From Desulfosarcina ovata subsp. ovata (GTDB taxonomy: Bacteria > Desulfobacterota > Desulfobacteria > Desulfobacterales > Desulfosarcinaceae): a stretch of DNA of 64,000 bases. The notes beneath the pieces were generated by a model that searched no databases, was not told where the DNA came from, and worked only from the letters and a program-made list of their open reading frames with translations. Shown in pieces: positions 747-32,580 of this stretch. Position numbers and translations under genes: made by a program. The first letter of the stretch is position 1. Every line of letters begins with the position of its first letter. Where the stretch lies: assembly GCF_009689005.1 (NCBI RefSeq), contig NZ_AP021879.1:372001-436000 (forward strand), given 5' to 3'.

Positions 747-3700
747 ATGGCTTACCCACTCAATACGCTGACCTTTCCCCTGCACGGCAATCGATTGATT
801 GAAGCCAGTGCCGGTACCGGCAAGACCTATACCATTGCGGCCCTGTACCTGCGTCTGGTGCTGGGGCATGGCGGTGAGAACGGCTTTGTCCGGCCGTTGA
901 CGCCACCGGAGATTTTGGTGGTGACCTTTACCAATGCTGCCACGGAAGAGCTGCGCGACCGGATCCGTTCCCGGCTGACCGAGGCGGCCGCCTTTTTCCG
1001 CAGGCAAGGCAGCGGTGATGATTACCTGCTCTCCTTGCGCGAAGCGTTTCCGGCGTCCCAGTGGCCCGCCAAGGCAAGACAGTTGGAACAGGCGGCCCAA
1101 TGGATGGACGAATCGGCCATCTTCACCATTCACTCATGGTGCCAGCGCATGCTTCGCCAACACGCGTTTGACAGCGGCAGCCTGTTTGATCTGGAGCTCG
1201 AAACCAATGAACAGCCGTTGCTGGAAGAGGCGGCTTGCGATTACTGGCGTAAATACTTCTATCCTCTGCCGGCTGCGCTTCTGGGTGAGCTGTTGGAATC
1301 GATACACTGCGACACGCCCCAGGCCTTGCTCGATCAGGTGCACCCCCTGCTCAATGTGCCGCTGCCATCGCCCGAAGATCCTTTCGACATCCTGACCCGT
1401 CGCCAGGCCGCCATTGAAACCGCGCGCCTCTGCTGGCAGAACGATTTCGATGCCGCCGTGGCAGCATTGCGCGACGCACAGGCCAGGAAAGTCCTCAGCG
1501 GCGTTAAATACCGAGCGGCTTCCCTGGAAAATTGGATTGATCGATTGTCCGCCTGGGTGGACGGGAATGGCCCGTTGCCCGATGCGGATGTGCTGGGCAA
1601 ACTGTCGCAGACGGGGCTGCGGGAAGGGGTCAATAAGAATAAGACCGCCCCCGAACATGCCGCCTATTCAGCTTTTGACCGGCTTATCGTTCAACTGGCC
1701 GAACTGGTAATGGATGAGGCGCTGTTGATCCATGCCGCCCGGGACATTGGCTGCCGGTTCCGGCAGGCCAAGCACCGTCAGGCCCAGATGGGGTTTGATG
1801 ACCTGCTCAGCATGCTTCAAAAGGCCTTGCAGGCACCCGGCGGTCAGCAATTGGCCACCATCATCCGCTCCCAGTTTCCTGTGGTGTTGATCGACGAATT
1901 TCAGGATACGGACCCGGTACAGTACGACATTTTCAGCAACGTCTACCTGGATCAGCCCGACACCGGCCTGCTGATGATCGGTGATCCCAAGCAGGCCATC
2001 TATGCCTTTCGCGGCGCGGATATTTATACCTACCTGAGAGCGCGCAGGGATACCGGGAATCGCCATTACACCCTGGAGAAAAACTACCGCTCCACCAATG
2101 CTCTGATCGACGCTGTCAACCAGATATTCTCATTTGCGGAGCAGCACGCCCAGGGGGCCTTTTTATTCAACGATCAGATCCCGTTTCACCCGGTAAAGGC
2201 CCAGGGGGGCAAAGGACAGTTTGTCGTGGACGGCAAGACCCTCAACGGGCTGCACATCTGGCAGCTTCCCCAAAGCGAACCGGTGAAAAAGACCGGCGAA
2301 GACGGCTACATCGGGCAGATGGCCTCGTCTGCCGCCAGTGAAATTGTGCGCTTGTTGAATCTGGCGCAGCAGCAGCCCCCCCGAGCCGGCTTCGAGCCAC
2401 CCGATGGCGGTGCGTTGCAGCCCTTGCGGCCGGCGGATATCGCCATTCTGGTCCGCAATCAAAACGAAGCCCGCGCCATTCGCCGCGCGTTGGAGGCGCG
2501 GCACGTGCGCAGCGTTTATCTTTCCGACAAGGACTCCGTCTTTGCCTGCGATGAAGCCACCTCTCTGCTGTACTGGCTCAGGGCCTGTGCCGAACCGGAG
2601 CAGGAGCGCCTGTTAAGAGCCGCACTGGCGACACCGGTGTTGAACCTGCCGCTGACACGCCTGGAGCAGTTCAATCGGGATGAGCTGGCCTGGGAGGCTG
2701 AAGTGGAGCGATTTCGCCGGTATCAGCGTGTCTGGCAGCGCCAGGGAATACTGCCCATGCTGCGGATGCTCCTGGGGGATTTTGATGTGCCGGCCCGTTT
2801 GCTCTCCCTGACCGATGGTGAGCGCGCCATCACCAATTTGCTTCACCTTGCGGAAATGCTGCAGACTGCCGCAGCCGACCTGGATGGCGAGCACGCCCTG
2901 ATCCGGTGGCTGGCCGAACAGATCGAGCAACCCGGCAGCGGCGCGGAGGAGCAGATTCTGCGGCTGGAAAGCGATGACGATCTGGTCCGGGTCATAACGG
3001 TCCACAAGTCCAAGGGGCTGGAGTATCCTTTGGTTTTTTTGCCGTTTATCTGCAGCTTTCAGGACCCGACGCGTCGAATCCTGTCGGTCGCCAGGTATCA
3101 TGATGATCAGGGGCGTCTGGTGACGGCGCTCAATCCGGGACCGGACGCCATTGAGGCCATCGACAACGAGCGTCTGGCCGAAGATGTGCGCCTGCTCTAT
3201 GTGGCGGTGACCCGTGCGCGATTTGCCTGCTGGTTGGGCGTGGGGGTTGTGGGTAAAGTCACCCAGAAAGACGGGGAGCAGACCAAACTGCACCAGACCG
3301 GACTGGGCTACCTGCTGTCGGCCGGGCAGATGATCCTCACCGGGGAGTTGCCGCAACGGCTGCAGGCACTGAAAGGCGATTGCAATGCCATTACCTTGTC
3401 TCCGCTGCCCGGTGCCACGGATGCCGTTTATCGCTTCGAAGATGAAACCCCACAATTGGACCCGGCGTTGGGGTTCGGCGGCAATGTGTCCCGCGACTGG
3501 CGGATCAGCAGTTACAGCAGCATGCTGGCCGGCGCCCAGATGAAGGCCCGGGCACCATTGGAACCTGCCGCGGCACCGCCATCGCCCGTGGGCGATGGCG
3601 CGCCTTCAGCCCCTGAATCGGCGGCCGAAGAACAGTTGCAGGAAGCTGCGGCCGAAGCAGCAACGGCGCGAGGCGCCATGGGTGCCGACCCGTCGATTCA

Positions 3701-16358: not shown

Positions 16359-18824
16359 ATGTTTCAAAAGTTTCGTAACCTTAAGCTGAGAACAAAACTG
16401 TTGCTTTCCATTTGTTCGGTCGCCTGGATCGCCTTTGCGGTGACCATTGCCTACATTGGTTTCCATGCGAGAAATATCGCCGAGGAAGAAGCCTTCGACA
16501 AAGCGCGTGAGTCGGCCTATCGCTATGCCAACCTGATTCAGGCGCAATTGGGCGGTGCCATGGATACGGCCCATACCATCGCCCAGGCGTTCGAGGGAAT
16601 GAAACAGCAGGGCGTGCCACCCCGGGATATGATGGATGGCGTCCTCAAGCAGGTTCTTCAGGACAACCCCGGATTCCTCGCCGTATGGACCTGCTGGGAA
16701 CCCAATGCCCTTGACGGCAAGGATTCCGACTTTTCGGATGCCTTTGGCCACGATGCCAGCGGGCGCTATATCCCTTACTGGAACCGGTTGACCGGTGATA
16801 TCGACGTCGAACCGTTGGAGAACTATACGGTTGCCGGTAAGGGCGATTACTATCTGGACGCGTTGCAATCCGGTCGGGACGTGGTTGCCAACCCGGTTTC
16901 GTTTAAAAGAGGGGACGCGACCGAACTGAAAACAATCTTGTCCGTTCCGGTCCGTTTTGCCGGTAAGATCGTTGCCGCTGTCGGGATCGACATTCCGCTT
17001 GCCTCATTTACGTCCGTTGTTGAGCAGATAAAAATTTTCAATAGTGGCTATGGGTTTTTGGTCGCCAATGACGCCACCCTTGCTGTCCATGGAACCGATT
17101 CCAGCATTGTCGGCCAGCCCATGAATGCATACGGGTTCAGCCAAACGGTCATCGACAGCGTCAAGGAAGGGCGTGAAGCCAACTTTTTCTCGGTATCAAA
17201 AGTCACCGGGCAGAGAACCGATTATATCTTCGTTCCCATCCAAATCGGCGACGCGGAAAACCAGTGGAGCATGGGGGTAAACATTCCCATGTATGAGGTG
17301 CTCGAGCGGCCCCGCCAGGTACTTTACGCCACCCTTATCGTTGGTAACATTTCTTTGCTGGGGCTCTTGGCCGTCGTCTATCTGATTTCCGGTGGAATCT
17401 CTCGCCCGGTCGTCGAGATTGCCGGCGTCGTCAACAAGGTCGCCACCGACCGTGATTTGACGCTTCAGGTGCCGGTCACCAGCGGTGATGAGGTCGGAAT
17501 GATGGCCAAGGAATTCAATAACATGATTGTCGAGCTTCGGGATTCCCTGAAGGTTGCGGATGTTTCTGCGACGGAAGTCGATAGCTTCTCTGCGGAGGTG
17601 TCCAAGCGGGCAACGGCCAATAGGGAACGTGCCGCCGAGGAAGAACGTCAGATGGGCATCATCCAGGAAACCGTTACCCAGATGGGCGGGACCGCCGGTG
17701 AAGTGGCCCAGTTTTCCCACTCCCAGCGGGACGCCGCCAACCTCTCCTACCGGCGGGTCGAGAACCTGATTGAGGGTATGCGCCAGATGGGGCAGTCCTC
17801 TTCGGAACAGATTCAGGAAGCCAATATCGCCAGTGAACGTGTGAATGTGATGGGGGAAACCGGTGCCATGGTTGTGGCCACGGCAGGGCGCCAGGGCGAG
17901 CAGGTGGTAAAGGTCACCCAGGCCGTCGGGCAGATCGATACCATTGTGGCGGAGATGACCCAGGCGGCCGGTCGGGCCACCCAGCATGGCCAGGAGGTTT
18001 TGGCGGCCGCCCGGGAAGGTGCCGGTTCGGTAAAGGAAACCGTTCTGGGTATGCAGGCCATTGCCGAATCGTCAGACAAAATTACCGATATTATTTCGGT
18101 CATCACCGATATTGCCGAACAGACCAACCTTTTGGCACTCAACGCCGCCATTGAGGCTGCCCGTGCCGGTGTTCATGGAAAGGGGTTTGCCGTTGTCGCC
18201 GACGAAGTCGGCAAATTGGCCCAGCGTTCATCCGAAGCGGCCAAAGAGATCGGTCAACTGATCAAGGAGTCGAGCAGCCGTGTCCAGGAGGGAACCCGGT
18301 TGACCGCGCGTTCGGAAGAGGCCCTGGAAAAAATCGCCAAGGGGGGGGAGATTAACCGCGAGGCCATTGATCATATTTCCGAGATGACCCAAACCTTGAA
18401 CCAGCAGACGCGGGATGTGGCAAGCCTGATGGAGGGTCTAAATGCCCTGGCCGAGGAGATTGCGGGGATGGCCGGTCGGCAGGGAGAACGTCGTCAAGCC
18501 GCCCAGACAGCGCTTGAAGCGCTGACTGCCAAATCAAAAACAATTTCCGATCTGGTTAAAAAGGCTGAAAAAGGGGCCGAGGATGTGGGTGCCGAAATGC
18601 GCAGCGTGGTTGAGCGAAGTGAGGAGATGAGAAAACTCACCGACCTTCAGGCAACGCGCTCAAAGACCCTCGTTGAAATCGCCCATGCATCGGCGGAGCA
18701 GGCAACCCAGACGGCTGCCGGTGCTGGTGAGGTCGTGGGCATTACCGATGAATTGCGGCAGCTTTCCTTGAAGCTGACCCGGCAGATTGCCATTTTCCGG
18801 ATTGATGCAGAGAAGGCCGGCTAA
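16359..18824 (+). CDS. Methyl-accepting chemotaxis protein with periplasmic Cache sensor
   Basis: An 821-aa transmembrane chemoreceptor. TM1 is at about residues 13-34, a large periplasmic double-Cache-like sensor follows (about 40-320, with [16 protein letters not shown] and the [17 protein letters not shown] region), then TM2 (about 323-345), HAMP (346-398) and a long coiled-coil signalling domain. The kinase-contact tip [19 protein letters not shown] lies near residues 587-605. There is no C-terminal CheR-docking pentapeptide. It is the first gene of the 12-gene operon and presumably the receptor for the CheA encoded downstream. The ligand is unknown; Cache domains often bind small organic molecules. 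Confidence 0.93.
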
Positions 18825-18866: not shown

Positions 18867-20102
18867 ATGATCATTTTTTGTGAAGAGTGCGGAGCCCGGA
18901 ATGATTTGAACGGAGATGCCTTGAGCGATGGCCGGCATACATTTGCTTGCCGTCAATGCAGCGAAATGCTCATGATTTCCAGGCCGACTTTGGATGGCGG
19001 ACTCAATGCATTTGCCGGAATGGTGCCCGGGGAAAGCGAAGCCCCTGAGACCGGTTCGCCGATTTCCATTCTGATTGTCGATGATTCAACGGTGTTGCGA
19101 AAGATTGTCAAAGAAATTTTTGCCGCCGATCATCAGTTGAAAGTCGTGGGAGAGGCGGAGAATGGATTGAAGGCGCTTGAGCTGATACCGCAGCTCAGGC
19201 CGGATGTGGTCACCCTTGATGTCAATATGCCCGTGATGGACGGGCTGAGCACCATCAAACACATTATGATCAAGTGCCCCACGCCGGTGGTCATGTTCAG
19301 TACACTTACCGGGCAGGGATCCCAAGCGACTTTTGAAGCCTTGCGGTATGGCGCGGTTGATTTCCTCCAAAAGCCATCCAGTCTGCTGAAGGAGGATTTG
19401 AAAAGCCAACATGAATTGATTGTCAGCCGGGTAAAAAATGCCGCCCGTGCCGGCGTCGATACCATCCGTTACCTTCGGCTGGCCCAACAAAACGACCCGT
19501 CACCATCAGTTAACGGGACACCCTGTCGGCATGTGTTTGCCATTGGCAGCACCTACGGCAGTTATGGGGCGCTGCTGGGACTGATTCCCAAACTCAACCC
19601 GGCCCTTCCGGCGGCCTACCTTTCCGTTTTGTACGCAACGCCCACGCATGTGGAGGCGTTTGCCCGGTATCTTGACGCCCACAGCCCCATGACCGTCAGC
19701 CGTGCCACGGATGGACAGGCCATTCGGTCCGGGACTTGTTATCTGGTTTCCGTTTTTGAAACGGTCACCCTTCAGGACGGTCCGGAGCATTTGAGCATTC
19801 GGTTGCGGCAAAACGCGTCAATGGATCCGGAACATGCCACGGATCACCTGATGACATCCATGGCCGGCACGCTAAAGGACCGGGCCGCAGGGGTATTGCT
19901 CTCCGGAATCGGTGACGATGGGGTCAGGGGCAGCGGCCGGATCATGGAGGCCGGCGGGTGTGTCATCCTGCAGGATCCGAACACCTGCCTTTGCAGCGAC
20001 ATCACCGCATCGGCTGTCAAACGCTATGGTCTGCCAACCGTACTTCCCGGTGCAAGGATGGCCCAAGCCATCCATTCGCGTTGCCAGGAAATGTGTGAAT
20101 AA
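18867..20102 (+). CDS. Zinc ribbon-REC-CheB-like protein with degenerate esterase site
   Basis: 411 aa in three parts. Residues 1-40 form a zinc ribbon (Cys5, Cys8, Cys28, Cys31). Residues 66-185 are an intact receiver (phospho-Asp118 in LDVNMPVMDG, Lys169). Residues 220-405 resemble the CheB methylesterase. The CheB GASTGG motif reads GSTYGS (227-232), the loop that should hold the catalytic His reads LYATPTH (255-261), with Ala where His is expected, and only the Asp of LSGIGDDG (Asp351) is retained. Esterase or deamidase activity is therefore doubtful. It sits 42 nt after the MCP. I infer a phosphorylation-controlled regulatory protein, not a normal CheB. Confidence 0.88.
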   Translation: MIIFCEECGARNDLNGDALSDGRHTFACRQCSEMLMISRPTLDGGLNAFAGMVPGESEAPETGSPISILIVDDSTVLRKIVKEIFAADHQLKVVGEAENGLKALELIPQLRPDVVTLDVNMPVMDGLSTIKHIMIKCPTPVVMFSTLTGQGSQATFEALRYGAVDFLQKPSSLLKEDLKSQHELIVSRVKNAARAGVDTIRYLRLAQQNDPSPSVNGTPCRHVFAIGSTYGSYGALLGLIPKLNPALPAAYLSVLYATPTHVEAFARYLDAHSPMTVSRATDGQAIRSGTCYLVSVFETVTLQDGPEHLSIRLRQNASMDPEHATDHLMTSMAGTLKDRAAGVLLSGIGDDGVRGSGRIMEAGGCVILQDPNTCLCSDITASAVKRYGLPTVLPGARMAQAIHSRCQEMCE

Positions 20103-20117
20103 AAGGAGAACGCGCCA

Positions 20118-20648
20118 ATGAATGAACGTTTTGCGCAGCCTGAACAAGTGCCCGTTGAGAGCGGAGCCAACCGGCAGCTCGTTGGTTTCGTTATCGGCGA
20201 GGAACGCTTCGGTGTGGATATTCTCACCGTTCAGGAAATTATTCGTGACGTCACCATCACAGCCATACCGGATTCACCGGATTTCCTGGAAGGGGTCATC
20301 AATCTCCGGGGCAGCATCATCCCGGTAATCGATTTGCGCAAACGGCTTAAGCTGATGGTCAAGCCCAAGGTCGATGGCCAGGCGTTGTGGATTATTATCC
20401 TCATTGTCGAAGGTCGAATCACCGGGTTTGTGGTGGACCGGGTGACCAAGGTGTTGAACGTGCCTGCCGCAAGCATCAAACCACCGCCCGACATCGTCGT
20501 GGCCGGCCTGAGAAGCCGATATATCAAAGGGGTTTGCAAATTGGATCAGCAACTCTTGATTCTTCTGGATTTCAATCGTGTGCTGATGGCGGATGAGATC
20601 AAGAAACTGAAATCGATGAAACGGGCGAAATTACCGCTGGAGGCATAG
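20118..20648 (+). CDS. cheW: CheW-type coupling protein
   Basis: A 176-aa single-domain CheW that links receptors to CheA in arrays. Typical blocks: LVGFVIGEERFGVDILTVQEIIRDVTITAIPDSPDFLEGVINLRGSIIPVIDLRKRL (residues 17-73 region) and ITGFVVDRVTKVLNV. An AAGGAG box precedes the ATG; the gap to the CheB-like gene is 15 nt. It is slightly longer than minimal CheW through a basic C-terminal tail. Confidence 0.95.
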   Translation: MNERFAQPEQVPVESGANRQLVGFVIGEERFGVDILTVQEIIRDVTITAIPDSPDFLEGVINLRGSIIPVIDLRKRLKLMVKPKVDGQALWIIILIVEGRITGFVVDRVTKVLNVPAASIKPPPDIVVAGLRSRYIKGVCKLDQQLLILLDFNRVLMADEIKKLKSMKRAKLPLEA

Positions 20649-20741: not shown

Positions 20742-21095
20742 ATGGGAAAAACGGTCTTGGTGGTGGATGATTCCTCCATTATGCGCAAAATGATCAAGCA
20801 GACACTCAGCTCTGCCGGACACACCATTGTCGGGGAGGCCAAGAGCGGTGACGATGCCATTGCCCAGTACGCGGCATTGAAGCCGGATATCGTCACCATG
20901 GACATTACCATGCGCGGCATGGACGGTATTGCCGCCGCCAAAATGATCCTGGAACAGGATGCCGGTGCGCGCATCATTATCCTCTCCAACCTGGATGAGG
21001 ATAAATTCAGCCATGAAGCCGAGCAGATCGGTGCCAAAGGATACCTTAACAAGCATAAAACCGAAGCGATTCTGGAGCTTATTTCCCAGTTGTGA
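20742..21095 (+). CDS. cheY: CheY-like single-domain response regulator
   Basis: A 117-aa receiver: acidic pocket VVDDSS, phospho-Asp in VTMDITMRGMDG, Ser/Thr in IILSNL and Lys in GAKGYLNK. Two upstream in-frame ATGs (20655, 20700) would add an N-terminus with no family match. 20742 gives the standard CheY length and has an AAGGGA-like box upstream. It lies between cheW and cheA and is the likely phosphoryl output or sink of this CheA. Whether it acts on a flagellar motor, pili or another output cannot be told. Confidence 0.9.
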   Translation: MGKTVLVVDDSSIMRKMIKQTLSSAGHTIVGEAKSGDDAIAQYAALKPDIVTMDITMRGMDGIAAAKMILEQDAGARIIILSNLDEDKFSHEAEQIGAKGYLNKHKTEAILELISQL

Positions 21096-21143
21096 TGGGC
21101 CGGTATCGATCGACGGTTACGATAGATGAAGAGGGAGCGTTCC

Positions 21144-24100
21144 ATGACCGACCATTCCTTGACTGAGGATTTTGCCGATGAGTCCCGCGAGCATTTAGAG
21201 GAGCTGGAGGGGTGCCTGCTGCGTCTGGAGTCCTCGCCTTCGGACAGCGAATTGCTGGGTGCGATTTTTCGGTCGATCCACACGATCAAAGGCGCTTCCG
21301 AGTATCTGGGGTTCGAGCGGATTGCCGAACTGACCCACCGGCTGGAAAATCTTCTGGACCGTTTTCGGGAGGGCCGGCTTGAGGTGGACAAGGTGGCGGT
21401 GGATCTTCTGATCGATGCCCGGGACCGGATGGACGAACTGGTGGGGCAGGTGGAGACCGGCGGCCGGGAAACGGCACAGATCGGCGATCTGCTGGAACGG
21501 GTCTCGGCGATGATGGAAGACCCCATGCCGGGGGCGGAACAAGACGCCACGCCGGTTTATGAAGATGAGGCGGACACGGAGCTGTTTGACATCTTTATCG
21601 AACAACTGGTGGCGGGCCTATATGAACTGGTGGCCACGGCCGGTCGGTGGGCGGATGGTGGAACGGACACCGAAACCAAGGCAGCCTTGCGGGACCAGGT
21701 GGAACGCTTGGCGTCGACCGCCAACTACATGGGCTACGATGCGCTGAATGCGGTGTATGCTGACCTTGGTCTGGCAGTGGAACGGTGTGATCCGGCATTG
21801 CCCGGAAACGCCAATGCGGACGACGAATCTTCTCTGGGATCGAGTGTGACCCAAAGCATTGAGCGTATCCGAAGGCTTTTCCCCAAGGCCGATGCGCTGG
21901 CCGCCATCGACACCCGTGCACGCTCGGCATGGCCGGGTGATGCCGAGATGCCCGACAGGACCATTGAGGCGCCTCCATTAAATAATGAGGCCGCAGGTAC
22001 CTTCCTGACGGGATCCATTGATGATGAACTCGATTTTTCCTTAGAAATGGATATGGACGATACCGATGCACCGCCGGCCCGGGACGCATCTTCATCGTCC
22101 CTGTACTTTGCGGCCGGGGATCCGCTTCTGCTCAAGGATTTTGCCGATGAGTCCCGCGAGCATCTGGAGGATCTGGAGGGGTGCCTGCTGCGTCTGGAGT
22201 CCGCGCCTTCGGACAGCGAATTGCTGGGTGCGATTTTTCGGTCGATCCACACGATCAAAGGGGCGTCCGAGTACCTGGGGTTCGAGCGGATTGCCGAGCT
22301 GACCCATCGGCTGGAAACGCTTCTGGATTGTTTTCGGGAGGGCCGGCTTGAGGTGGACAAGGTGGCGGTTGATCTTCTGATCGATGCCCGGGACCGGATG
22401 GACGAACTGGTGAAGCAGGTGGAGACCGGCGGCCGGGAAACGGCACAGATCGACGATCTGCTGGAACGGGTCTCGGCGATGATGGAAGACCCCATGCCGG
22501 GGGTGGAACAAGACGCCACGCCGGTTTATGACGATGAGGCGGACACGGAGCTGTTTGACATCTTTATCGAACAACTGGTGGCGGGCCTAGATGAACTGGT
22601 GGCCACGGCCGATCGGTGGGCGGATGGTGGAACGGACACCGAAACCAAGGCAGCCCTGCGGGACCAGGTGGAACGCTTGGCGTCGACCGCCAACTACATG
22701 GGCTACGATGCGCTGAATGCGGTGTATGCTGACCTTCGCCTGGCAGTGGAACGGTGTGTTCCGGCATTGCCCGGAAACGCCAATACGGGCGACGGATTTT
22801 CGCTGGCAACGAGTGTAACCGAAAGCATTGAGCGTATCCGGCAGCTTTTCCCCAAGGCCGATGCGCTGGCCGCCGTTGATACCCGCGCACGCTCTCTCCC
22901 TTGCGAAGACCCCCTTCCCGCGGAAGCCCATGCAGACTTGGAAACAAGGTCATCTGCGGATATTGATGATGTGCTGGCGGCGCTACCCGCCATCAATGAA
23001 CATGACCGTGAGGAGCTGCTTTCTAAAACGCTGGATGAAACGTTTGATGCCATGGGCAACGATGGCGCCGCTGATCCGGACCCGGTGGATGCGCAGGATG
23101 ATGATGACCCCATCGGCCTGAATTTCCTCACCTGTGAGAATAACGAAGCGGAACCGATGCCGGGGCCCGGTACCGATGACTCGGACGCAGCGCCTTTGGG
23201 GATCATGGACGCGTTTGGCGCGGAGCAGGCGACGCCTGTCGAGAAATCCTCCCGGTCTGCCGACATGCCGTCCTTGTCTGCGGCTGTAGATGCCGGAGCG
23301 GAATTGTGGCCCCGGGCACCGGAAGAGGCCACCTTGCCCGAGGCACCCACGGCTCCCGATGCTCCTGCGCTGACGGATAATGATTTTTCGGAGCCCCAAG
23401 CGCAGGAAGTTTCCGAAGAGGCGCCCGCTACCGACGGTTTCGTTGCCCGCAGCACGGTCAGAAAAAGTATCCGTGTGGATGCCCAAAAGGTCGACGACCT
23501 CATGAACCAGGTCGGTGAGCTGGTCGTCAACCGGTCTTCCTTTACCCAGATTTTTCAGGAGATGCGCGACCTGGTTCACTACCTGGGTCAGCGTTTTCCC
23601 ATGGACAAGGGGGACCATCGCTTGCTGACCGGCCTGAACACGCGTCTCATGGACGCGACGACGGTGCTCGGGCGGGTTACCGGTGAACTGCAGGAGCAGG
23701 TCATGAAAGTCCGCATGCTGCCCATATCGCGGCTTTTCAATCGCTATCCGCGATTGGTTCATGACCTTATCAAAGCATCGGATAAAAAAGTTCAGCTTCA
23801 GTTCCAGGGTGAGGAGACAGAACTGGACCGCATGGTCATCGAACAGCTGGCAGACCCCCTGATCCATGTTATCCGCAATGCTGTCGATCATGGAATCGAG
23901 CCTTGTGAGGAGCGCAAGCGTAAAGGCAAACCGGGAAAAGGCACATTGTTGCTGAATGCGTACCATGAGGGCAGCAATGTGATTGTCGAAATTACGGATG
24001 ATGGTAATGGCATCGACCTGTCGCGGATCCGGCAGAAGGCGATTGAAAAACAATTGGCTGATCGTGAGACACTGGAGCAGATGGACCAGCGGGCATTGAT

Positions 24101-24728
24101 CAACATGATCATGCTGCCCGGTTTTTCTACGGCCGATCAGATTACGCACACTTCCGGGCGCGGGGTGGGCATGGATGTGGTCAAGCAAAGCCTTGAAAAA
24201 ATCAACGGCGTGCTGAGCATTGATACCCGCCAGGATGTGGGCACCCGTATCCGAATTAAGATCCCTCTGACACTGGCGATCATTCCCGCATTGATGCTCC
24301 GTTGTGGCGACAGCCACTTTACTCTTCCCCTGGGTGCGGTTGAGGAGACCTTGCGCATTGACCGCGGTGAGATTTTTACCGTGGATGGCAGCCAGATGAT
24401 GCACCTGCATGAGGAGCCCTTGCCGCTGGTCAGGCTGACGGACCTGCTTAAGATACCGGTCCCGTCGGCCGGTGACGACGAGGAGAGGCTGTTTGTGGTT
24501 GTCGTCAAGGCGACCACCGGCCAGACCGGTTTGATCGTTGACGCCCTACTGGGACGTCAGGAAGTGGTGATTAAGCCGCTGGAGGACTACCTGCAGGAAA
24601 GCAGCGGCTTTTCCGGCGCCACCATTTTGGGTGACGGAAAGATTTCGTTGATCCTCAACGTGGATGAACTGGTGGTCATGGCCAGAGAGCGGGAGACGGA
24701 AAAACGATTGGCTGCTGCTGTGCTGTAA
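21144..24728 (+). CDS. cheA: CheA histidine kinase with duplicated Hpt modules
   Basis: 1194 aa from the ATG at 21144 (GAGGGAG box 6 nt before), nearly twice the usual CheA. Hpt 1 has His46 in SIHTIKGASEYLGF. A second Hpt-like module at about 146-220 lacks the histidine (RLASTANYMGY). Both are repeated 323 codons later, with His369. A long acidic linker follows (about 590-770). The standard core comes next: dimerisation (from about 773), HATPase (N box HVIRNAVDHGIE near 906, DDGNGID, SGRGVGMDVV) and a CheW-like regulatory domain (about 1040-1194). It phosphorylates CheY and the receiver proteins around it. Confidence 0.95.
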   Translation: MTDHSLTEDFADESREHLEELEGCLLRLESSPSDSELLGAIFRSIHTIKGASEYLGFERIAELTHRLENLLDRFREGRLEVDKVAVDLLIDARDRMDELVGQVETGGRETAQIGDLLERVSAMMEDPMPGAEQDATPVYEDEADTELFDIFIEQLVAGLYELVATAGRWADGGTDTETKAALRDQVERLASTANYMGYDALNAVYADLGLAVERCDPALPGNANADDESSLGSSVTQSIERIRRLFPKADALAAIDTRARSAWPGDAEMPDRTIEAPPLNNEAAGTFLTGSIDDELDFSLEMDMDDTDAPPARDASSSSLYFAAGDPLLLKDFADESREHLEDLEGCLLRLESAPSDSELLGAIFRSIHTIKGASEYLGFERIAELTHRLETLLDCFREGRLEVDKVAVDLLIDARDRMDELVKQVETGGRETAQIDDLLERVSAMMEDPMPGVEQDATPVYDDEADTELFDIFIEQLVAGLDELVATADRWADGGTDTETKAALRDQVERLASTANYMGYDALNAVYADLRLAVERCVPALPGNANTGDGFSLATSVTESIERIRQLFPKADALAAVDTRARSLPCEDPLPAEAHADLETRSSADIDDVLAALPAINEHDREELLSKTLDETFDAMGNDGAADPDPVDAQDDDDPIGLNFLTCENNEAEPMPGPGTDDSDAAPLGIMDAFGAEQATPVEKSSRSADMPSLSAAVDAGAELWPRAPEEATLPEAPTAPDAPALTDNDFSEPQAQEVSEEAPATDGFVARSTVRKSIRVDAQKVDDLMNQVGELVVNRSSFTQIFQEMRDLVHYLGQRFPMDKGDHRLLTGLNTRLMDATTVLGRVTGELQEQVMKVRMLPISRLFNRYPRLVHDLIKASDKKVQLQFQGEETELDRMVIEQLADPLIHVIRNAVDHGIEPCEERKRKGKPGKGTLLLNAYHEGSNVIVEITDDGNGIDLSRIRQKAIEKQLADRETLEQMDQRALINMIMLPGFSTADQITHTSGRGVGMDVVKQSLEKINGVLSIDTRQDVGTRIRIKIPLTLAIIPALMLRCGDSHFTLPLGAVEETLRIDRGEIFTVDGSQMMHLHEEPLPLVRLTDLLKIPVPSAGDDEERLFVVVVKATTGQTGLIVDALLGRQEVVIKPLEDYLQESSGFSGATILGDGKISLILNVDELVVMARERETEKRLAAAVL
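21171..21925 (+). repeat. Internal cheA duplication, unit 1
   Basis: About 755 bp that recur at 22140-22894 with constant offset 969 bp (323 codons) and no indels. Identity is very high over the first ~600 bp. Encodes one Hpt domain plus one His-less Hpt-like module. Confidence 0.93.
22140..22894 (+). repeat. Internal cheA duplication, unit 2
   Basis: The second copy of the unit at 21171-21925. The differences are scattered substitutions (for example G-Q to K-Q, Y-E to D-E), and the reading frame and active histidine are kept. Confidence 0.93.
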
Positions 24729-26269: not shown

Positions 26270-27223
26270 ATGATCATCGTGTGCCAGCAATGCCAAACCC
26301 GTTTTCATCTTGATGACGATGCCACCCGAAAATCCACGTTCGTCGCCCGTTGCTCGGTCTGCGGTCATCTTTTTTCGGCATACCGGCCGGTGCGGACCCA
26401 GGCGATTACTTTCATCGATCTGGAAAAGGTCCGTCAGGCTGAAGCCGACGACACGGTAATGGCGATCAGCAACCGCAAGGGAGGGGTTGCCAAGACGACG
26501 ACCTGCCTCAACCTTGGCGCTTCCCTGGCCCTGTATGGGAAAAAAGTGCTTCTGGTGGACTTCGACGCCCAGGCCAATTTGAGCCTCTGCCTGGGCAAAA
26601 GGGAGTTGCCGACATTCTATGATGCCCAGAAAGCAGTTAGCCGGCCGCTTGATGAATTTATCGTCGCCACCGCCTATCCAAATGTCTGGCTGCTTCCTTC
26701 CGGGCGCAATATGGTACTGCTCAACAAGAACTATTTCGGTTCCCGGGATTTTGAGTTCCTGCTCAAAGACCGGCTGGAGACTCTCGAAGCAGAATTCGAT
26801 TTTATTTTGATCGATACGCCGCCGTCCATCGAATTCTCAACCCTGAATGCCCTTACCGCCGCTAGACGGGTGTTGATCCCCTGTCAGTGTGATTATCTCT
26901 CCACCCATGGTGTGGATCAGGTGTTGCGGCTCATCGCACTGATTCGCAAAAAGTCCAACCCGCTCATCGAATCCCGGGTCTTGCTGACCATGCTGGATCG
27001 GGATACATCGGTGTCGCAGATGATTCTTTCCAAAATCAAGCGTCTGTACCAGGGGCAGACCTTCGAGACATTGATTGAAATGGATGGGCAACTCAAGGAA
27101 GCCCAGATTTTGAGCATGCCGGCCATCCATTACAGCCGTAAAAGCCCTGCCGCCAAACAGTACATCCAGCTGGCCCGGGAGATTTTGGTCGCTACCGATC
27201 GGGCAGCCGTGTCTGCGCCATGA
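26270..27223 (+). CDS. Zinc ribbon-ParA ATPase of the chemosensory operon (ParC-like)
   Basis: 317 aa. Residues 1-40 form a zinc ribbon with Cys5, Cys8, Cys28 and Cys31, the same spacing and positions as in the CheB-like protein at 18.9 kb. Then comes a ParA-type ATPase with deviant Walker A RKGGVAKTT (about 69-77), LLVDFDAQANLS and LIDTPPSIEFSTLNAL. ParA-like proteins in che operons (ParC, PpfA) place chemoreceptor arrays at the pole or distribute them, so array positioning is the likely role. The stop overlaps the next ATG by 4 nt (ATGA). Confidence 0.9.
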   Translation: MIIVCQQCQTRFHLDDDATRKSTFVARCSVCGHLFSAYRPVRTQAITFIDLEKVRQAEADDTVMAISNRKGGVAKTTTCLNLGASLALYGKKVLLVDFDAQANLSLCLGKRELPTFYDAQKAVSRPLDEFIVATAYPNVWLLPSGRNMVLLNKNYFGSRDFEFLLKDRLETLEAEFDFILIDTPPSIEFSTLNALTAARRVLIPCQCDYLSTHGVDQVLRLIALIRKKSNPLIESRVLLTMLDRDTSVSQMILSKIKRLYQGQTFETLIEMDGQLKEAQILSMPAIHYSRKSPAAKQYIQLAREILVATDRAAVSAP

Positions 27224-27843
27224 CTTTTCGCAGTGAGTATTCCCTTCAGCGCACCATGATTATCTATATCCTGCTGATCGGGTTTGCAGCGCTTCTGGTG
27301 GCTGCGGAATTTGTCGTCGATACGCATTCATCGGCCTTGAAAAAAGCCCTTGGGCAGAATTTTCAGCGCTATGCCAGCGGCCAGTTGTCCCAAGATGACG
27401 TCTACGACCCGCTGGTGCGAATCCGCAACAAGGCCATGATGATGGTGGGTGTCATTCTGGCAGTGGTCGTCATTGTTTTGACCATGTTCATCAAAACCAT
27501 CACAGAACCCCTGCAGCATCTGATCGAGGTGTCCAAGGCGATCAATACCGGAGACCTGAGTGGCACTGCCGGTATCGATACCCGCAACGAACTCTCCCAG
27601 TTGTCGGCCGCAATTGATGACATGGCCACCAACTTGCAAGAAATTGTCATGCTTTCCCGATCGGTTTGCGATTCGGCCGGCCATGTGACGGGCAGCACGT
27701 TGGCGCTTTTCGACAAGGAGGACTTTACCCCTGAAGCCGTGCAGCCAATGAAGCGGCAACTGGTTCGTCTGGAATCTGAAATGCTGACCCTCAGTCAGGC
27801 GATTGAGTGTTTCAAACTCTATTCGGTGGACGACCAACCATGA
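27220..27843 (+). CDS. Membrane HAMP-domain protein without output domain
   Basis: 207 aa. TM1 is at about residues 12-32, a short periplasmic loop of ~40 residues follows, TM2 at about 70-91, and HAMP at about 92-146 (ITEPLQHLIEVSKAINTGDLSG). A ~60-residue helical tail ends the protein. There is no methyl-accepting, kinase or cyclase domain. It may be a truncated receptor, a membrane anchor or a HAMP-mediated partner of the MCP. The start and stop codons overlap both neighbours as ATGA, indicating tight translational coupling. Confidence 0.82.
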   Translation: MTFRSEYSLQRTMIIYILLIGFAALLVAAEFVVDTHSSALKKALGQNFQRYASGQLSQDDVYDPLVRIRNKAMMMVGVILAVVVIVLTMFIKTITEPLQHLIEVSKAINTGDLSGTAGIDTRNELSQLSAAIDDMATNLQEIVMLSRSVCDSAGHVTGSTLALFDKEDFTPEAVQPMKRQLVRLESEMLTLSQAIECFKLYSVDDQP

Positions 27844-28601
27844 GCACAATGGCGGTTCTGGCCCTGCCGGCAGGCGTCGTGATTGCAACCCTGGTGTCGG
27901 CCGTGGGGATTGGCGGGGGGATTCTGTGGATGCCGTTTTTTCTCCTGTTCCTACAACTTCCGCCGGAGACCGCGGTGGTTACGTCGCTTCTCGTACAGAC
28001 GGCGGGCATGGGATCAGGCAGCATGGCCTTTATTCGCAAAGGTGCGGCGGATCTCCCCCTGGCCGGTTTTCTTCTGTTGCTGACACTTCCCGGGCTGGCC
28101 TTGGGGGCGCTGTTAACCCGGCGTTTGTCATCGGCAAACCTGGAGCTGGCGCTGGGTATCCTCACGTTGACCACGGCTTTTCTGTTTGTATCGGCAAGCC
28201 AGCGATACGCTGAGCGAGGGCAGGACCGCGTGCCGCTAAAGCATGTCCGTCAGTATGGCGCAGTTGTCTCCTGCCTGGCCACTGCCAGCGGAATGCTCAG
28301 CGTCAGTATTGGTGAATGGCTGGTCCCACTCATGCGCAGCCGCCTGAAACTGCGTATGCGAGTTGCCGTGGCAACCAGTATTGTCACGATTTTCGGAACC
28401 TGTGTGGCCGGTTCGGCCTTGCATCTTCTGATGGGGGCACCGACGGATTTGAAAATATTGGCCTGGGCGGTGCCGGGGGTCCTTATTGGCGGCCAGATTG
28501 GACCGCGGGTGACCGAGACGATTAACGAAAGGGTCCTGAAGGAGCTGTTTGTCTTTTTGCTGACCCTAATCGGAATCCATCTGATCTATAACAGTTATTG
28601 A
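27840..28601 (+). CDS. TauE/SafE-family membrane carrier
   Basis: A 253-aa protein with about eight hydrophobic segments of the TauE/SafE (DUF81) family, members of which export sulfite, sulfoacetate or other organosulfur anions. The N-terminal VSAVGIGGGILWMPFFL and the second-half GTCVAGSALHLLMG blocks reflect the family's internal repeat. The ATG at 27840 overlaps the preceding stop (ATGA). Placement beside a Tau/Ssu-type ABC transporter supports, but does not prove, an organosulfur or small-anion substrate. Confidence 0.87.
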   Translation: MSTMAVLALPAGVVIATLVSAVGIGGGILWMPFFLLFLQLPPETAVVTSLLVQTAGMGSGSMAFIRKGAADLPLAGFLLLLTLPGLALGALLTRRLSSANLELALGILTLTTAFLFVSASQRYAERGQDRVPLKHVRQYGAVVSCLATASGMLSVSIGEWLVPLMRSRLKLRMRVAVATSIVTIFGTCVAGSALHLLMGAPTDLKILAWAVPGVLIGGQIGPRVTETINERVLKELFVFLLTLIGIHLIYNSY

Positions 28602-28630
28602 ATTGCAGCGCGAAGGAAGGAGACGCTGTC

Positions 28631-29422
28631 TTGGGCGTTCTGCAAGGAAATAAAAAAGGCAACTCGCCGTATACCTGGTTGATTCCATTTGCCGGTTTTG
28701 CGCTCCTGGTACTGGCCTGGGCGCTTTTGTCGCGATTCAGCGGCTGGAGTCGGCAGGTATTTCCGGGGCCGCTGACCGTGTTAATCAGCATGGCGGAGCT
28801 TGTGGCCGACGGGACCCTGATCCGGCATACGGTGGCCAGTCTTTACCGGGTCACCATCGGATTTTATCTGGCGGCCGGGCTGGGGATTCCTCTGGGTATT
28901 GCCTTGGGGATGACAAAAGGACTCAGGGCCCTGGTCAATCCACTGATTCAGTTTTTGCGGCCAATATCGCCACTGGCATGGATCCCCCTTGCCATGCTGT
29001 GGTTTGGTATTGGCGATCCCCCGGCGATTTTCCTGATTTTCCTCTCCAGTTTTTTCCCCTTGGTGGTTTCCACCACCATTGCCGTGGATGGGATCAACCC
29101 GACCTATTTCCATGTTGCGGCCAATTTCAATTTCTCTTTGTTTGAAACGGTTACGCGCCTGATCATCCCGGCGATCGTTCCCGAGGTGATCACGGCCCTG
29201 CGGATGACCGTGACCATTTCCTGGCTGGTGGTGGTGGCTGCGGAGATGATTGCGGTTCAGTCCGGGCTGGGATTTCTGATCCTTGACGCACGCAATGCTC
29301 TGCGCATGGATTATGTCATGGATGGGATGGTGGTTATCGGGCTGGTGGGGTTGGCACTGGATCGACTGATGCGCAAGTTGGGTCGCCTGGAGGAGGTCAG
29401 CTGGCATAAAATGAGCCATTGA
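28631..29422 (+). CDS. ABC transporter permease, Tau/Ssu/Nrt family
   Basis: 263 aa from a TTG at 28631 with an AAGGAG box 8 nt upstream; an earlier TTG at 28598 lacks one. Six hydrophobic segments and the coupling-loop EAA-type region (NFNFSLFETVTRLIIPAIVPEVITALRMT) identify a BPD-type permease like SsuC, TauC or NrtB. It works with the ATPase and binding protein encoded directly downstream. Substrates of the family include sulfonates, nitrate, bicarbonate and thiamine precursors; the specificity here is not decided. Confidence 0.9.
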   Translation: MGVLQGNKKGNSPYTWLIPFAGFALLVLAWALLSRFSGWSRQVFPGPLTVLISMAELVADGTLIRHTVASLYRVTIGFYLAAGLGIPLGIALGMTKGLRALVNPLIQFLRPISPLAWIPLAMLWFGIGDPPAIFLIFLSSFFPLVVSTTIAVDGINPTYFHVAANFNFSLFETVTRLIIPAIVPEVITALRMTVTISWLVVVAAEMIAVQSGLGFLILDARNALRMDYVMDGMVVIGLVGLALDRLMRKLGRLEEVSWHKMSH

Positions 29423-29433
29423 GGAGAATCAGG

Positions 29434-30231
29434 GTGGGCCGCATTACGATTCAAAATTTGAGCAAAACATACATCAACCGAAGACGCTTTCCCCGTGGTG
29501 ACGATGACCCGCAGGTGCGTCAAGGTGAACGGATCACCGTTCTCAAGGATATCAATCTTGAAATTGAAAACGGTGAAATGGTCTGTTTTCTCGGCCCGTC
29601 GGGTTGCGGCAAATCGACCCTCCTGAGAATTATTGCCGGTTTTGAACCGGCCTGTGGCGGTGTGGTTCAGGTTAATGGCCAACCGGTGACGGGGCCTTCT
29701 GCCGATCATATTTTCGTCTTTCAGCACAGTGGTCTGTTTCCCTGGATGACCGTGGCCGAAAATGTCGGGCTGGGGCTGCGCCATTTAAAAAACCACCATT
29801 CGCGGCAGGCCCAGGTGACGGAATTTATCGAGATGGTCGAGTTGGAGGGCTTTGAACACCACTATCCCCGGCAACTCTCCGGCGGCATGCAGCGGCGCGC
29901 CGAACTTGCCCGGGCACTGGCCGTTAACCCGGACATCATGATCATGGATGAGCCATTCAGCGGTCTTGATTTTCTTACCCACATGAAGATGCGCGAGGAG
30001 GTTGTCAATATGCATGCGTTTATCCGGAAGACGATGCTTCTGGTGACGCATAACATTGATGATGCCCTGATCATGGGAGATCATATCGTCATCCTGGGAT
30101 CCAGCCCCACGGCGGTGACCATGGACCGCATCCTCGATTTCCCGCGTCCCCGTAATTTTGAAAAATCTCCGGAACTGGGCCGTTTGAGAAGTGAACTGTT
30201 TTTGATGCTGGGGATTAATTATGCGGTTTAA
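29434..30231 (+). CDS. ABC transporter ATP-binding protein, Tau/Ssu/Nrt family
   Basis: 265 aa from a GTG at 29434 (GAGGAG box 6 nt before; the TTG at 29419 overlapping the permease stop is less likely). Walker A GPSGCGKST, Q-loop FQHSGLFPWMT (typical of this family), signature LSGGMQRRAELARAL, Walker B IMIMDEPFSGLD and the H-loop VTHNIDDAL are all intact. An insert rich in Arg and Asp after the first strand (about residues 10-30) is longer than usual. Confidence 0.93.
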   Translation: MGRITIQNLSKTYINRRRFPRGDDDPQVRQGERITVLKDINLEIENGEMVCFLGPSGCGKSTLLRIIAGFEPACGGVVQVNGQPVTGPSADHIFVFQHSGLFPWMTVAENVGLGLRHLKNHHSRQAQVTEFIEMVELEGFEHHYPRQLSGGMQRRAELARALAVNPDIMIMDEPFSGLDFLTHMKMREEVVNMHAFIRKTMLLVTHNIDDALIMGDHIVILGSSPTAVTMDRILDFPRPRNFEKSPELGRLRSELFLMLGINYAV

Positions 30232-31264
30232 ACCCAATTTCCATCCCGTTTTCGGTCAATGGCCGCTGCCGGTCAAAATCGGTATCCTTTTCTTCGCTTG
30301 GCTGATTTTTATTACTGCTTTTCATTATCGATTGAACTGCCACGGGGACGATCGAAGGGTGGTTCGCATGGGGTATATGCCGGTGGTTACGAACTTGGCG
30401 GCACCACTTCTGGATCATGTCTCACAAAGCAGTCCCGATATCTTCTTCGAGGCAGTAAAGTTCTCTTCTTTTGCCGAAATGGCCGAAGCCCTGCGCAATG
30501 ATCATATCCAGGCCGCGTTTATCATTGCCCCCCTGGCCGTTGTGCTTCACCAGCAAGGGGTCGACATTAAAGTGGTGCTGATCGGTAACCGGCATGAGAG
30601 CACCCTGGTGGCCAGAAAAGAACTTCGAGTCACACGGATCGAAGACCTGACAGGACGGACGATTGCCGTGCCCATGCGGTACTCCGGACACAACTTGTGC
30701 CTGTTAAAGGCTTTTGAGGAAAAGGGGCTTGGCGGGCGCATCCGTCTTGTGGAGATGAATCCCCCGGATATGGCTTCAGCCCTGACAACCGGCGCGCTGG
30801 ACGCCTATTTTGTCGGCGAACCCTTTGCCGCCCAGACCGTGAGAAGCGGCGATGCGGATGTAGTGGCCCGTGCGGAGGCGTTGTGGCCCAATTTTATTTG
30901 CAACCTGCTGGTTGTAAAATCAGATTGGATAGCGGCCAATCCGTCATCTGTCCAAAAGCTGGTCCACACATCGGCTCGGGCGGGCATGTGGGCCAAGGCT
31001 CATCCTTTGGATGCGGCCCGAATTGCCGCTGATTACTGGAAACAGGATGTCGGTTTGGTCGAGTATGCCCTGACGATTCCCAAGGGGCGCGTGATCTATG
31101 ATCGATTTGTTCCCAAGGCGGAAGAGTTGCGTGAGATTGCCGATCTCATGGCCCGTTACCACCTGATCAAACATACGGATATCACGGGTTTGGTGGAGGA
31201 TCGTTTCGCACGGTCGGCGTCGATGACGGGCATTGGTGAGCTTGGAACTATTCTTTATCCCTGA
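30221..31264 (+). CDS. ABC transporter substrate-binding protein, NMT1/TauA-like, membrane-anchored
   Basis: 347 aa; overlaps the ATPase gene by 11 nt. The N-terminus (hydrophobic residues about 18-35, then FHYRLNC) has no clear cleavage site, so the protein is probably tethered to the membrane rather than free. The body VRMGYMPVVTNLAAPLLDH, FSSFAEMAEALRNDHIQAAFIIAPLAVVL and LTGRTIAVPMRYSGHNLCL fits the NMT1/SsuA/NrtA binding-protein family. It is the last gene of the long operon. A tethered binding protein encoded with a chemoreceptor system could also present ligand to the receptor; that is inference. Confidence 0.88.
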   Translation: MRFKPNFHPVFGQWPLPVKIGILFFAWLIFITAFHYRLNCHGDDRRVVRMGYMPVVTNLAAPLLDHVSQSSPDIFFEAVKFSSFAEMAEALRNDHIQAAFIIAPLAVVLHQQGVDIKVVLIGNRHESTLVARKELRVTRIEDLTGRTIAVPMRYSGHNLCLLKAFEEKGLGGRIRLVEMNPPDMASALTTGALDAYFVGEPFAAQTVRSGDADVVARAEALWPNFICNLLVVKSDWIAANPSSVQKLVHTSARAGMWAKAHPLDAARIAADYWKQDVGLVEYALTIPKGRVIYDRFVPKAEELREIADLMARYHLIKHTDITGLVEDRFARSASMTGIGELGTILYP

Positions 31265-31345: not shown

Positions 31346-31963
31346 TTATTTTTTACGCAACTGACCGATCTCCTTGCGGATGGCGTCTAATTCCGTTACC
31401 ATCAGGGACTTCAGGTCATCAATGGCTTGAATTACCGCCTCAATGCCTGTGGCGGCATTGGCTTTGGGTGCCTGGGGGGCAGCACTAGACGCGGGCTTGC
31501 GCTCAACAATTTTTGCCTTGAGCATTTTAAACTGATTGACTTCTTCTTGCAGCAACTGCTTTTTTTCCGTCTGACTCAGGTCATCATTGCCCACCACGGC
31601 TTCAAGCGTGGAGTAGACGGCCATAATCCGTTTGATGGTATCCGGATGGGCATTGGACTTTTTTTGGCGAATATACTTGCCCAGTGACTTCAGAATTTTA
31701 AGCAGCGATTGGATCACCTTGTCCGCTGAATAGCGATCCGCCAGTTTGTCGACCTGGTGGATAAATGCATCCAGGGCGTCATCGGTAATTTCCCAGTCGA
31801 TGGCCAGGATTGTCGATTTCAGATCCTCCAACGGAAGCTCGGAGACTTTTGCCGCAGCGGGTTCCGCCGCTGGATTTTCCTGGGGCGGCAGTTCATCACT
31901 GAAAAAATCATCAAGACGGTTTTCCAAATCAAAGGCGAACGTATCATTCGCTTTTTTATCCAC
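31346..31963 (-). CDS. Hypothetical protein encoded with MglA-like GTPase
   Basis: 205 aa from a GTG with an AGGAGGG box 6 nt upstream. Acidic N-terminus, Ala/Pro linker (residues 30-40), a helical core of about 50-150 (LEDLKSTILAIDWEITDDALDAFIHQVDKLADRY) and a C-terminal helix likely to form a coiled coil (VIQAIDDLKSLMVTELDAIRKEIGQLRKK). No domain is recognised. It follows the MglA gene by 11 nt, so it is likely an effector or partner of the GTPase. It converges with the transporter operon. Confidence 0.75.
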   Translation of the reverse strand: MDKKANDTFAFDLENRLDDFFSDELPPQENPAAEPAAAKVSELPLEDLKSTILAIDWEITDDALDAFIHQVDKLADRYSADKVIQSLLKILKSLGKYIRQKKSNAHPDTIKRIMAVYSTLEAVVGNDDLSQTEKKQLLQEEVNQFKMLKAKIVERKPASSAAPQAPKANAATGIEAVIQAIDDLKSLMVTELDAIRKEIGQLRKK

Positions 31964-31974
31964 GCTGGTCCCTC

Positions 31975-32580
31975 CTATAAGAGCTTTTCCCGAATAGCCA
32001 CCATTGTGGTTGAGATGGCCCTTTTCACGGTCGCAATGACATTCTCTCCCGTAACCGCACTGGCAGTAAAACTGGGCGCCTTGAGTTCTGCGTTAAGGTC
32101 CTGCTCCATGGTTTCCAAGTCAAGGATGGGGACGCCCTGTGCCCCCAGGTCCCGTTTGTTATATTGAAGAATGAACGGGAAATCGCAAATATCAATGTCG
32201 TAAAAGCGAAGGTTCTCTTTCAGATTCTCAAGTGAATGGATGTTGTTTTCGCGTCGATCGACCATGGAATCGGCCACAAAAACAATGCCATCCACGCCCT
32301 TCAATACCAGCTTTCGGGTGGCGTTGTATTTGACCTGTCCGGGCACTGTGTAAAGCTGCGTCTTGACGTTGTATCCTTTGATGGCTCCCAATTCGAATGG
32401 CAGAAAATCAAAAAACAGGGTGCGATCCCCCTGAGTTTTGATGCTGACCATGTCGGATTGGATACGGTGCCGGATCCGGCTGAAGATATATTCCAGATTG
32501 GTCGTTTTTCCGCCTCTGCCGGGGCCGACATAAACAAGCTTGACCTGGACTTCTTTGGTTTTGGTGTTGATAAACGCCAT
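31975..32580 (-). CDS. mglA: MglA-type small GTPase
   Basis: A 201-aa Ras-like GTPase of the MglA group, polarity switches for motility and pili in Myxococcus and Thermus. P-loop GPGRGGKTT (19-27), switch region near KTQGDRTLFFDFLP, YTVPGQVKYNATRKLVLKGVDGIVFVADS (the G3 region has the MglA-type TVPGQ) and NKRDL (G4). The partner roadblock gene is immediately upstream. The minus-strand order roadblock-mglA-205 aa suggests one operon. Confidence 0.92.
   Translation of the reverse strand: MAFINTKTKEVQVKLVYVGPGRGGKTTNLEYIFSRIRHRIQSDMVSIKTQGDRTLFFDFLPFELGAIKGYNVKTQLYTVPGQVKYNATRKLVLKGVDGIVFVADSMVDRRENNIHSLENLKENLRFYDIDICDFPFILQYNKRDLGAQGVPILDLETMEQDLNAELKAPSFTASAVTGENVIATVKRAISTTMVAIREKLL

Follow-up and report, generated by a model that had tools for sequence, protein, structure and literature searches.

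What is the role of the extra Hpt domains found in multi-Hpt CheA kinases, and of those among them that lack the histidine? This open question can be addressed with the family of a cheA gene from Desulfosarcina ovata subsp. ovata, located in a stretch of 64,000 nucleotides (here referred to as the window) of a genome of one contig of 7.63 Mb. Multi-Hpt kinases represent 18% of CheA, and some with His-less Hpt domains are already known (PMC10782961). The Hpt domains of the window gene are arranged in two nearly identical units of 250 residues.

Composition of the chemosensory operon

The following genes were annotated:

16359-18824, + strand: chemoreceptor of the methyl-accepting type (dCache-HAMP-MCPsignal)
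18867-20102, + strand: CheB-like protein 1; receiver Asp kept, methylesterase Ser changed to Thr and His to Tyr
20118-20648, + strand: CheW
20742-21095, + strand: CheY
21144-24728, + strand: cheA, composed of two Hpt-pseudo-Hpt units, acidic linker, P3, P4 and P5
24755-26221, + strand: CheB-like protein 2; DUF4388, receiver and degenerate methylesterase (triad G, G, G)
26270-27223, + strand: ParA-type ATPase with N-terminal zinc ribbon
27220-27843, + strand: small HAMP protein

The domain search bore out CheY and two CheB-like receivers, as named in an earlier inspection of the DNA alone (the sequence-only reading); they are encoded adjacent to the kinase. The order MCP, CheB-like, CheW, CheY, CheA, CheB-like, ParA recurs in Gammaproteobacteria and in Thermodesulfobacteriota, cable bacteria among them. 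The literature searched yielded no account of such an operon. Relatives were retrieved by a unit-alignment search of genome contigs, while a single-protein query gave no matches. At 27807-31264 a TauE-type exporter is followed by an ABC permease, an ATPase and an NMT1-like binding protein. The exporter adjoins the che operon in many relatives as well.

Both CheB-like proteins are probably devoid of esterase activity. Their catalytic triads depart from Ser/His/Asp in the window (T/Y/D in CheB1, G/G/G in CheB2), and the catalytic His was retained in 22/119 CheB1-like and 0/41 CheB2-like sequences, the former set including every CheB-like ORF near these loci. The receiver phospho-acceptor Asp was present throughout (119/119 and 41/41). 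No CheR was found near the operon in the window or in 87 related loci. The CheR genes of the window genome are located elsewhere, from where a methyltransferase could act in trans. One of these CheR genes is a neighbour of a second CheA found at 2.30 Mb (G000:C1, 2.299-2.305 Mb; L002, L131), a protein of 1080 aa with a single Hpt match, which probably represents the conventional chemotaxis system of this genome.

Of the genomes with this CheA, 26/26 contained pilT and 10/26 contained fliG; some of the genomes searched were incomplete MAGs and pilT is widespread anyway. Based on the absence of CheR, the degenerate CheB triads and this distribution of pilT and fliG, we infer that the system controls pilus or gliding behaviour instead of flagellar rotation and works without adaptation by methylation. 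For D. ovata itself a flagellar output is conceivable, given that its genome encodes flagellins.

Domain structure of CheA

The reading frame of cheA is open over 1200 codons. The start is likely at 21144 and not at 21126, since a GAGGGAG motif is located immediately 5' of 21144 and most congeners retain the MTD start. Pfam matches follow the order of CheA P1, P3, P4 and P5, with Hpt in each unit and subsequently H-kinase_dim, HATPase_c and CheW. In the Pfam search of the protein a P2 domain was absent, and no Response_reg match, i.e. no receiver domain, was found. The individual parts are:

21165-21515, + strand: Hpt 1; phospho-acceptor His46 (codon 21279-21281) with Lys/His/Glu active-site partners
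21555-21926, + strand: pseudo-Hpt 1; E in the His slot, ANYMGY motif, four-helix bundle in the AlphaFold2 model
21927-22133, + strand: inter-unit linker L1; unique within the gene, not homogenised
22134-22484, + strand: Hpt 2; phospho-acceptor His369 (codon 22248-22250)
22524-22895, + strand: pseudo-Hpt 2; His-less module of the second unit
22896-23435, + strand: acidic linker L2; orthologous across the genus
23463-23711, + strand: P3 dimerisation domain (H-kinase_dim, Pfam)
23853-24272, + strand: P4 kinase domain (HATPase_c, Pfam)
24288-24674, + strand: P5 CheW-like domain (Pfam)

In total, the window CheA carries two His-bearing Hpt and two His-less Hpt-like domains. One active Hpt per unit with His46 and His369, as proposed before, was confirmed in the 21144 frame. 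Among the family units the active site was nearly invariant (His 84/85, Lys 85/85, Glu 85/85), and both window units are intact. As in canonical CheA P1 (T. maritima 1tqg/2ld6, Salmonella 1i5n), the active Hpt retains His/Lys/His/Glu, and Foldseek gave TM-scores of up to 0.86 to CheA P1 (normalised to the P1 structure). Different from canonical P1, the Hpt is present twice and each copy is paired with a His-less Hpt-like partner.

The Hpt-like module without histidine

The proposal of one Hpt-like module per unit that lacks the histidine was borne out at the family level. In 85 pseudo-Hpt units the slot was never occupied by His (0/85), while the motif N-Y-M-x-Y was found in 85/85 and the residues D, L, A and G close to it were almost invariant. 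The family profile matches the T. maritima CheA P1 structures (E 1.4e-5 and 3.2e-5), and in this alignment the phospho-His of CheA P1 lies opposite a variable, never-His column. A weak Pfam Hpt match was obtained in 36/57 members. Searches of Pfam and of PDB sequences yielded no named family for the pseudo-Hpt other than Hpt/CheA P1.

In the AlphaFold2 model of one unit the Hpt (residues 2-118) is followed by a separate four-helix bundle (residues 138-238) with a pLDDT of 88.8; at a pTM of 0.54 the orientation of the two relative to each other is not predicted. When the pseudo-Hpt alone was used in Foldseek, the high ranks included Hpt domains as well as redesigned bundles of CheA P1, but no match had E <0.001. 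This ranking lends support to an Hpt fold of the predicted bundle, although it is no proof.

Since no unit has His in the slot and all of them share N-Y-M-x-Y, the His-less domain is a conserved module rather than a decaying copy. The conservation extends across phyla. With its own signature, this pseudo-domain is open to mutation of N-Y-M-x-Y.

The repeat within the window gene

The two units (21171-21926 and 22140-22895) are in-frame and align at a constant offset of 969 without indels, as described previously. They share 714/756 nt (94.4%) and differ at 42 positions, resulting in 22 amino-acid differences (dN 0.042, dS ~0.106). Outside of the units the identity drops to background (6-10 of 30). 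The self-comparison suggested in the sequence-only reading gave the same picture, with 94.6% across 760 bp in self-blastn.

The differences are unevenly distributed, with a change point at ~21816 (dS 0.074 before and 0.31 after; permutation p=0.0006). An edge of this kind is expected of a conversion tract and delimits one further feature:

21166-21815, + strand: more recently homogenised portion of unit 1; partner 22135-22784, dS 0.074 to ~21815 (change-point permutation)

Architecture and copy number among relatives

The four congeners in which the gene is complete (L034-L037) all show the architecture HpHp of the window at 58-62% protein identity, with exactly two units at the same place. 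The relatives include D. widdelii PP31 and D. alkanivorans PL12, two single-contig chromosomes with this architecture. Elsewhere in the family and order one unit (Hp), two (HpHp, HppH, Hpp) or three (HpHpHp) were present, and overall the genes range from one to three or more units. The comparison of copy number among relatives, which had been called for, thus gave two units in 4/4 complete congeners and a variable number family-wide.

In Desulfatitalea BRH_c12 (L052/L062) a 1105-bp in-frame repeat with a period of 993 is 99.5% identical with its linker included and is best regarded as a fresh tandem amplification. Its array is cut by the contig end (L052, 1-2098) and probably holds four or more units. 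The suspicion that the locus is prone to instability is sustained by this amplification and by the varying copy number.

Eight draft contigs (L009, L010, L011, L026, L030, L043, L044, L052) break within or beside cheA, which is what real exact repeats would cause in short-read assemblers. Because contigs end at or near the cheA repeats, unit counts from drafts are unreliable, and genes with repeats of this kind may be broken or miscounted in short-read assemblies. Separate tandem repeats with periods of ~213 and ~441 bp were seen in the acidic linker of cheA in L050 (CDS 2390-3146).

Homogenisation of the two units

Within the gene, the units of the four congeners are 97.6, 97.0, 99.0 and 98.8% identical (dS 0.038, 0.044, 0.014 and 0.018), so that the window with 94.4% (dS ~0.105) has the lowest identity of the five Desulfosarcina genes and is unexceptional for the genus. 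Between Desulfosarcina species, in contrast, the same units are only 63-84% identical and dS is mostly >0.9 (0.43 in the closest pair). In self-blastn of the four congeners the homogenised tracts were sharply bounded, with lengths of 742-774 bp and identities of 99.3-100%, including a 770-bp tract of 100% identity in D. widdelii. Two sister-genus genes had homogenised tracts of 99.4% (L051) and 91%, and in Desulfatitalea the first two units were homogenised in two genes (99.4% in Desulfatitalea alkaliphila L047).

Sites were classified as concerted when shared within a gene and differing between species, and as positional when shared by unit position. In ten Desulfosarcina species pairs 116-243 sites were concerted, 0-2 positional and 0-1 crossed. 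The reverse was found in the control pairs L039/L042 (16 concerted versus 54 positional) and gammaproteobacterial L088/L092 (10 versus 84), demonstrating that the test is able to detect positional inheritance. In a maximum likelihood tree of 78 units the within-gene pairs were sisters in 5/5 Desulfosarcina genes, whereas the units of L039/L042 and of L082/L088/L092 clustered by position. Units are accordingly diverging by position in some Desulfatitalea and Gammaproteobacteria.

These patterns indicate that the units overwrite each other within each lineage while the flanking linkers diverge. The overwriting would be due to homologous recombination, in the form of gene conversion between the copies with occasional unequal crossover; the end-point sequences are compatible with gene conversion and with crossover-driven expansion and contraction alike. 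In homogenised genes the GC content of the units is ~3-6 points above that of the kinase core. This is compatible with GC-biased conversion and equally with composition differences between domains.

Putative function of the repeated units

The best explanation in our opinion, with a probability of roughly 0.7 for the whole, is a kinase of a conserved operon with an old array of Hpt and pseudo-Hpt units under concerted evolution, equal phosphodonors, a docking pseudo-Hpt and a pilus or gliding output. The N-terminus of the kinase is this array, and each CheA protomer would offer two equivalent phospho-acceptor histidines to P4. Two donors may raise the local substrate concentration and thereby the phosphoryl output to the same receivers, namely CheY and the receiver domains of the two CheB-like proteins. 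The pseudo-Hpt might provide an integral surface on which receivers or P4 dock or are positioned, and so replace the absent P2, a role suggested by its conservation and by the lack of P2. The system as a whole is most likely a methylation-independent chemosensory system of the pilus or gliding type.

A more far-reaching variant is less probable. Intragenic recombination might be maintained, and the identical units would then form an amplifier of adjustable copy number (one to three or more). It would characterise a methylation-free, ParA-linked class with non-enzymatic CheB-like receivers and the N-Y-M-x-Y pseudo-Hpt as a new docking module.

For the two histidines the sequence-only reading had considered both a change of signal gain and service to different receivers. 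That the two active Hpt modules are specialised for CheY and for the CheB-like proteins, respectively, is improbable here. Several receivers are encoded beside the kinase and the window copies differ in 22 amino acids, but the Hpt modules are protein-identical in most congeners, making a difference in specificity impossible there. Specialisation could arise where units diverge by position, as in some Desulfatitalea and Gammaproteobacteria. Because recombination holds the donors equal, gain by dosage is the favoured part of the proposal within this genus. The family offers a natural experiment, with donors forced to be identical in some species, diverging by position in others, and relatives with one or three units, which makes dosage versus specialisation directly testable.

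Age of the two-unit array

As an alternative to an old duplication, each species could have duplicated a single-unit ancestor recently and separately, without any gene conversion. Single-unit (Hp) genes do occur in the order and BRH_c12 demonstrates that fresh amplification takes place, yet we regard this as unlikely, slightly more so than specialisation. A recent tandem copy should leave a linker matching another part of the gene, as seen in BRH_c12, and no such source of L1 was found in the own gene in eight genes tested. Furthermore, the L1 linkers of L036 and L037 are clearly orthologous (z 11.8), although in each of these two genes the units are sisters of one another. In more distant pairs L1 is nearly saturated, its similarity approaching that of shuffled sequences (z -0.5 to 4); here the argument rests on shared position, copy number and the absent L1 source.

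Since L1 is sourceless and orthologous in the closest pair, the data point to an old duplication kept uniform by recurrent intragenic recombination. The two-unit array is older than the split of the Desulfosarcina species sampled. The earlier designation of the duplication as recent is not supported: the two-unit gene is common to the genus and the near-identity of its units results from repeated homogenisation.

An assembly or sequencing artefact, i.e. one unit counted twice, is very unlikely. Tandem near-repeats are a classic trap and a number of drafts are interrupted at the gene or next to it, but the 42 differences, the unique linkers, the open frame and the agreement of three single-contig chromosomes (the window genome and two further congeners) speak against it, and the draft breaks fit real exact repeats. 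Strong purifying selection on the protein, in line with the family-wide conservation of both Hpt and pseudo-Hpt motifs, can be dismissed barring constraint on the DNA itself, given that synonymous sites are alike too (within-gene dS 0.014-0.105 versus ~1 between species) and that the D. widdelii tract is identical throughout.

Comparison with known systems

Multi-Hpt CheAs of the Tfp/ACF classes (e.g. Pseudomonas aeruginosa ChpA; PMC10782961) are similar in carrying several N-terminal Hpt domains, some His-less, in lacking P2 and in genomes that encode type IV pili. F4-class CheA has three Hpt domains (PMC10782961). A C-terminal receiver domain, present in >90% of multi-Hpt CheAs and therefore usual though not universal (PMC10782961), is missing in Desulfosarcina CheA. 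Further differences to the Tfp/ACF proteins are the regular, recombination-homogenised Hpt and pseudo-Hpt units with a fixed N-Y-M-x-Y and an operon that includes ParA together with degenerate CheB-like proteins. In CheA3 of Cereibacter sphaeroides, too, a single active Hpt precedes Hpt-like domains that lack His; these were described as degenerate remnants (PMC10782961), whereas the pseudo-Hpt is strongly conserved here.

Protein repeats generally diverge faster from each other than orthologues do (PMC5120217). Concerted evolution by gene conversion (PMC2720389), including the intragenic case of spider silks (PMC3933166), renders paralogues closer than orthologues with synonymous sites included, as observed for the units; in the present case the copies are domains of a single bacterial signalling gene. 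In the literature searched, no paper described concerted evolution or gene conversion for a CheA. As far as this literature shows, the receiver-less regular unit of Hpt and pseudo-Hpt, its conserved signature and its concerted evolution are new.

The window also encodes an MglA-like Ras-superfamily GTPase (31975-32580, - strand) and a 205-aa partner (31346-31963, - strand), both located approximately 4 kb downstream of the operon. Among congener loci of limited length, the partner stays near the operon in three and the GTPase in one.
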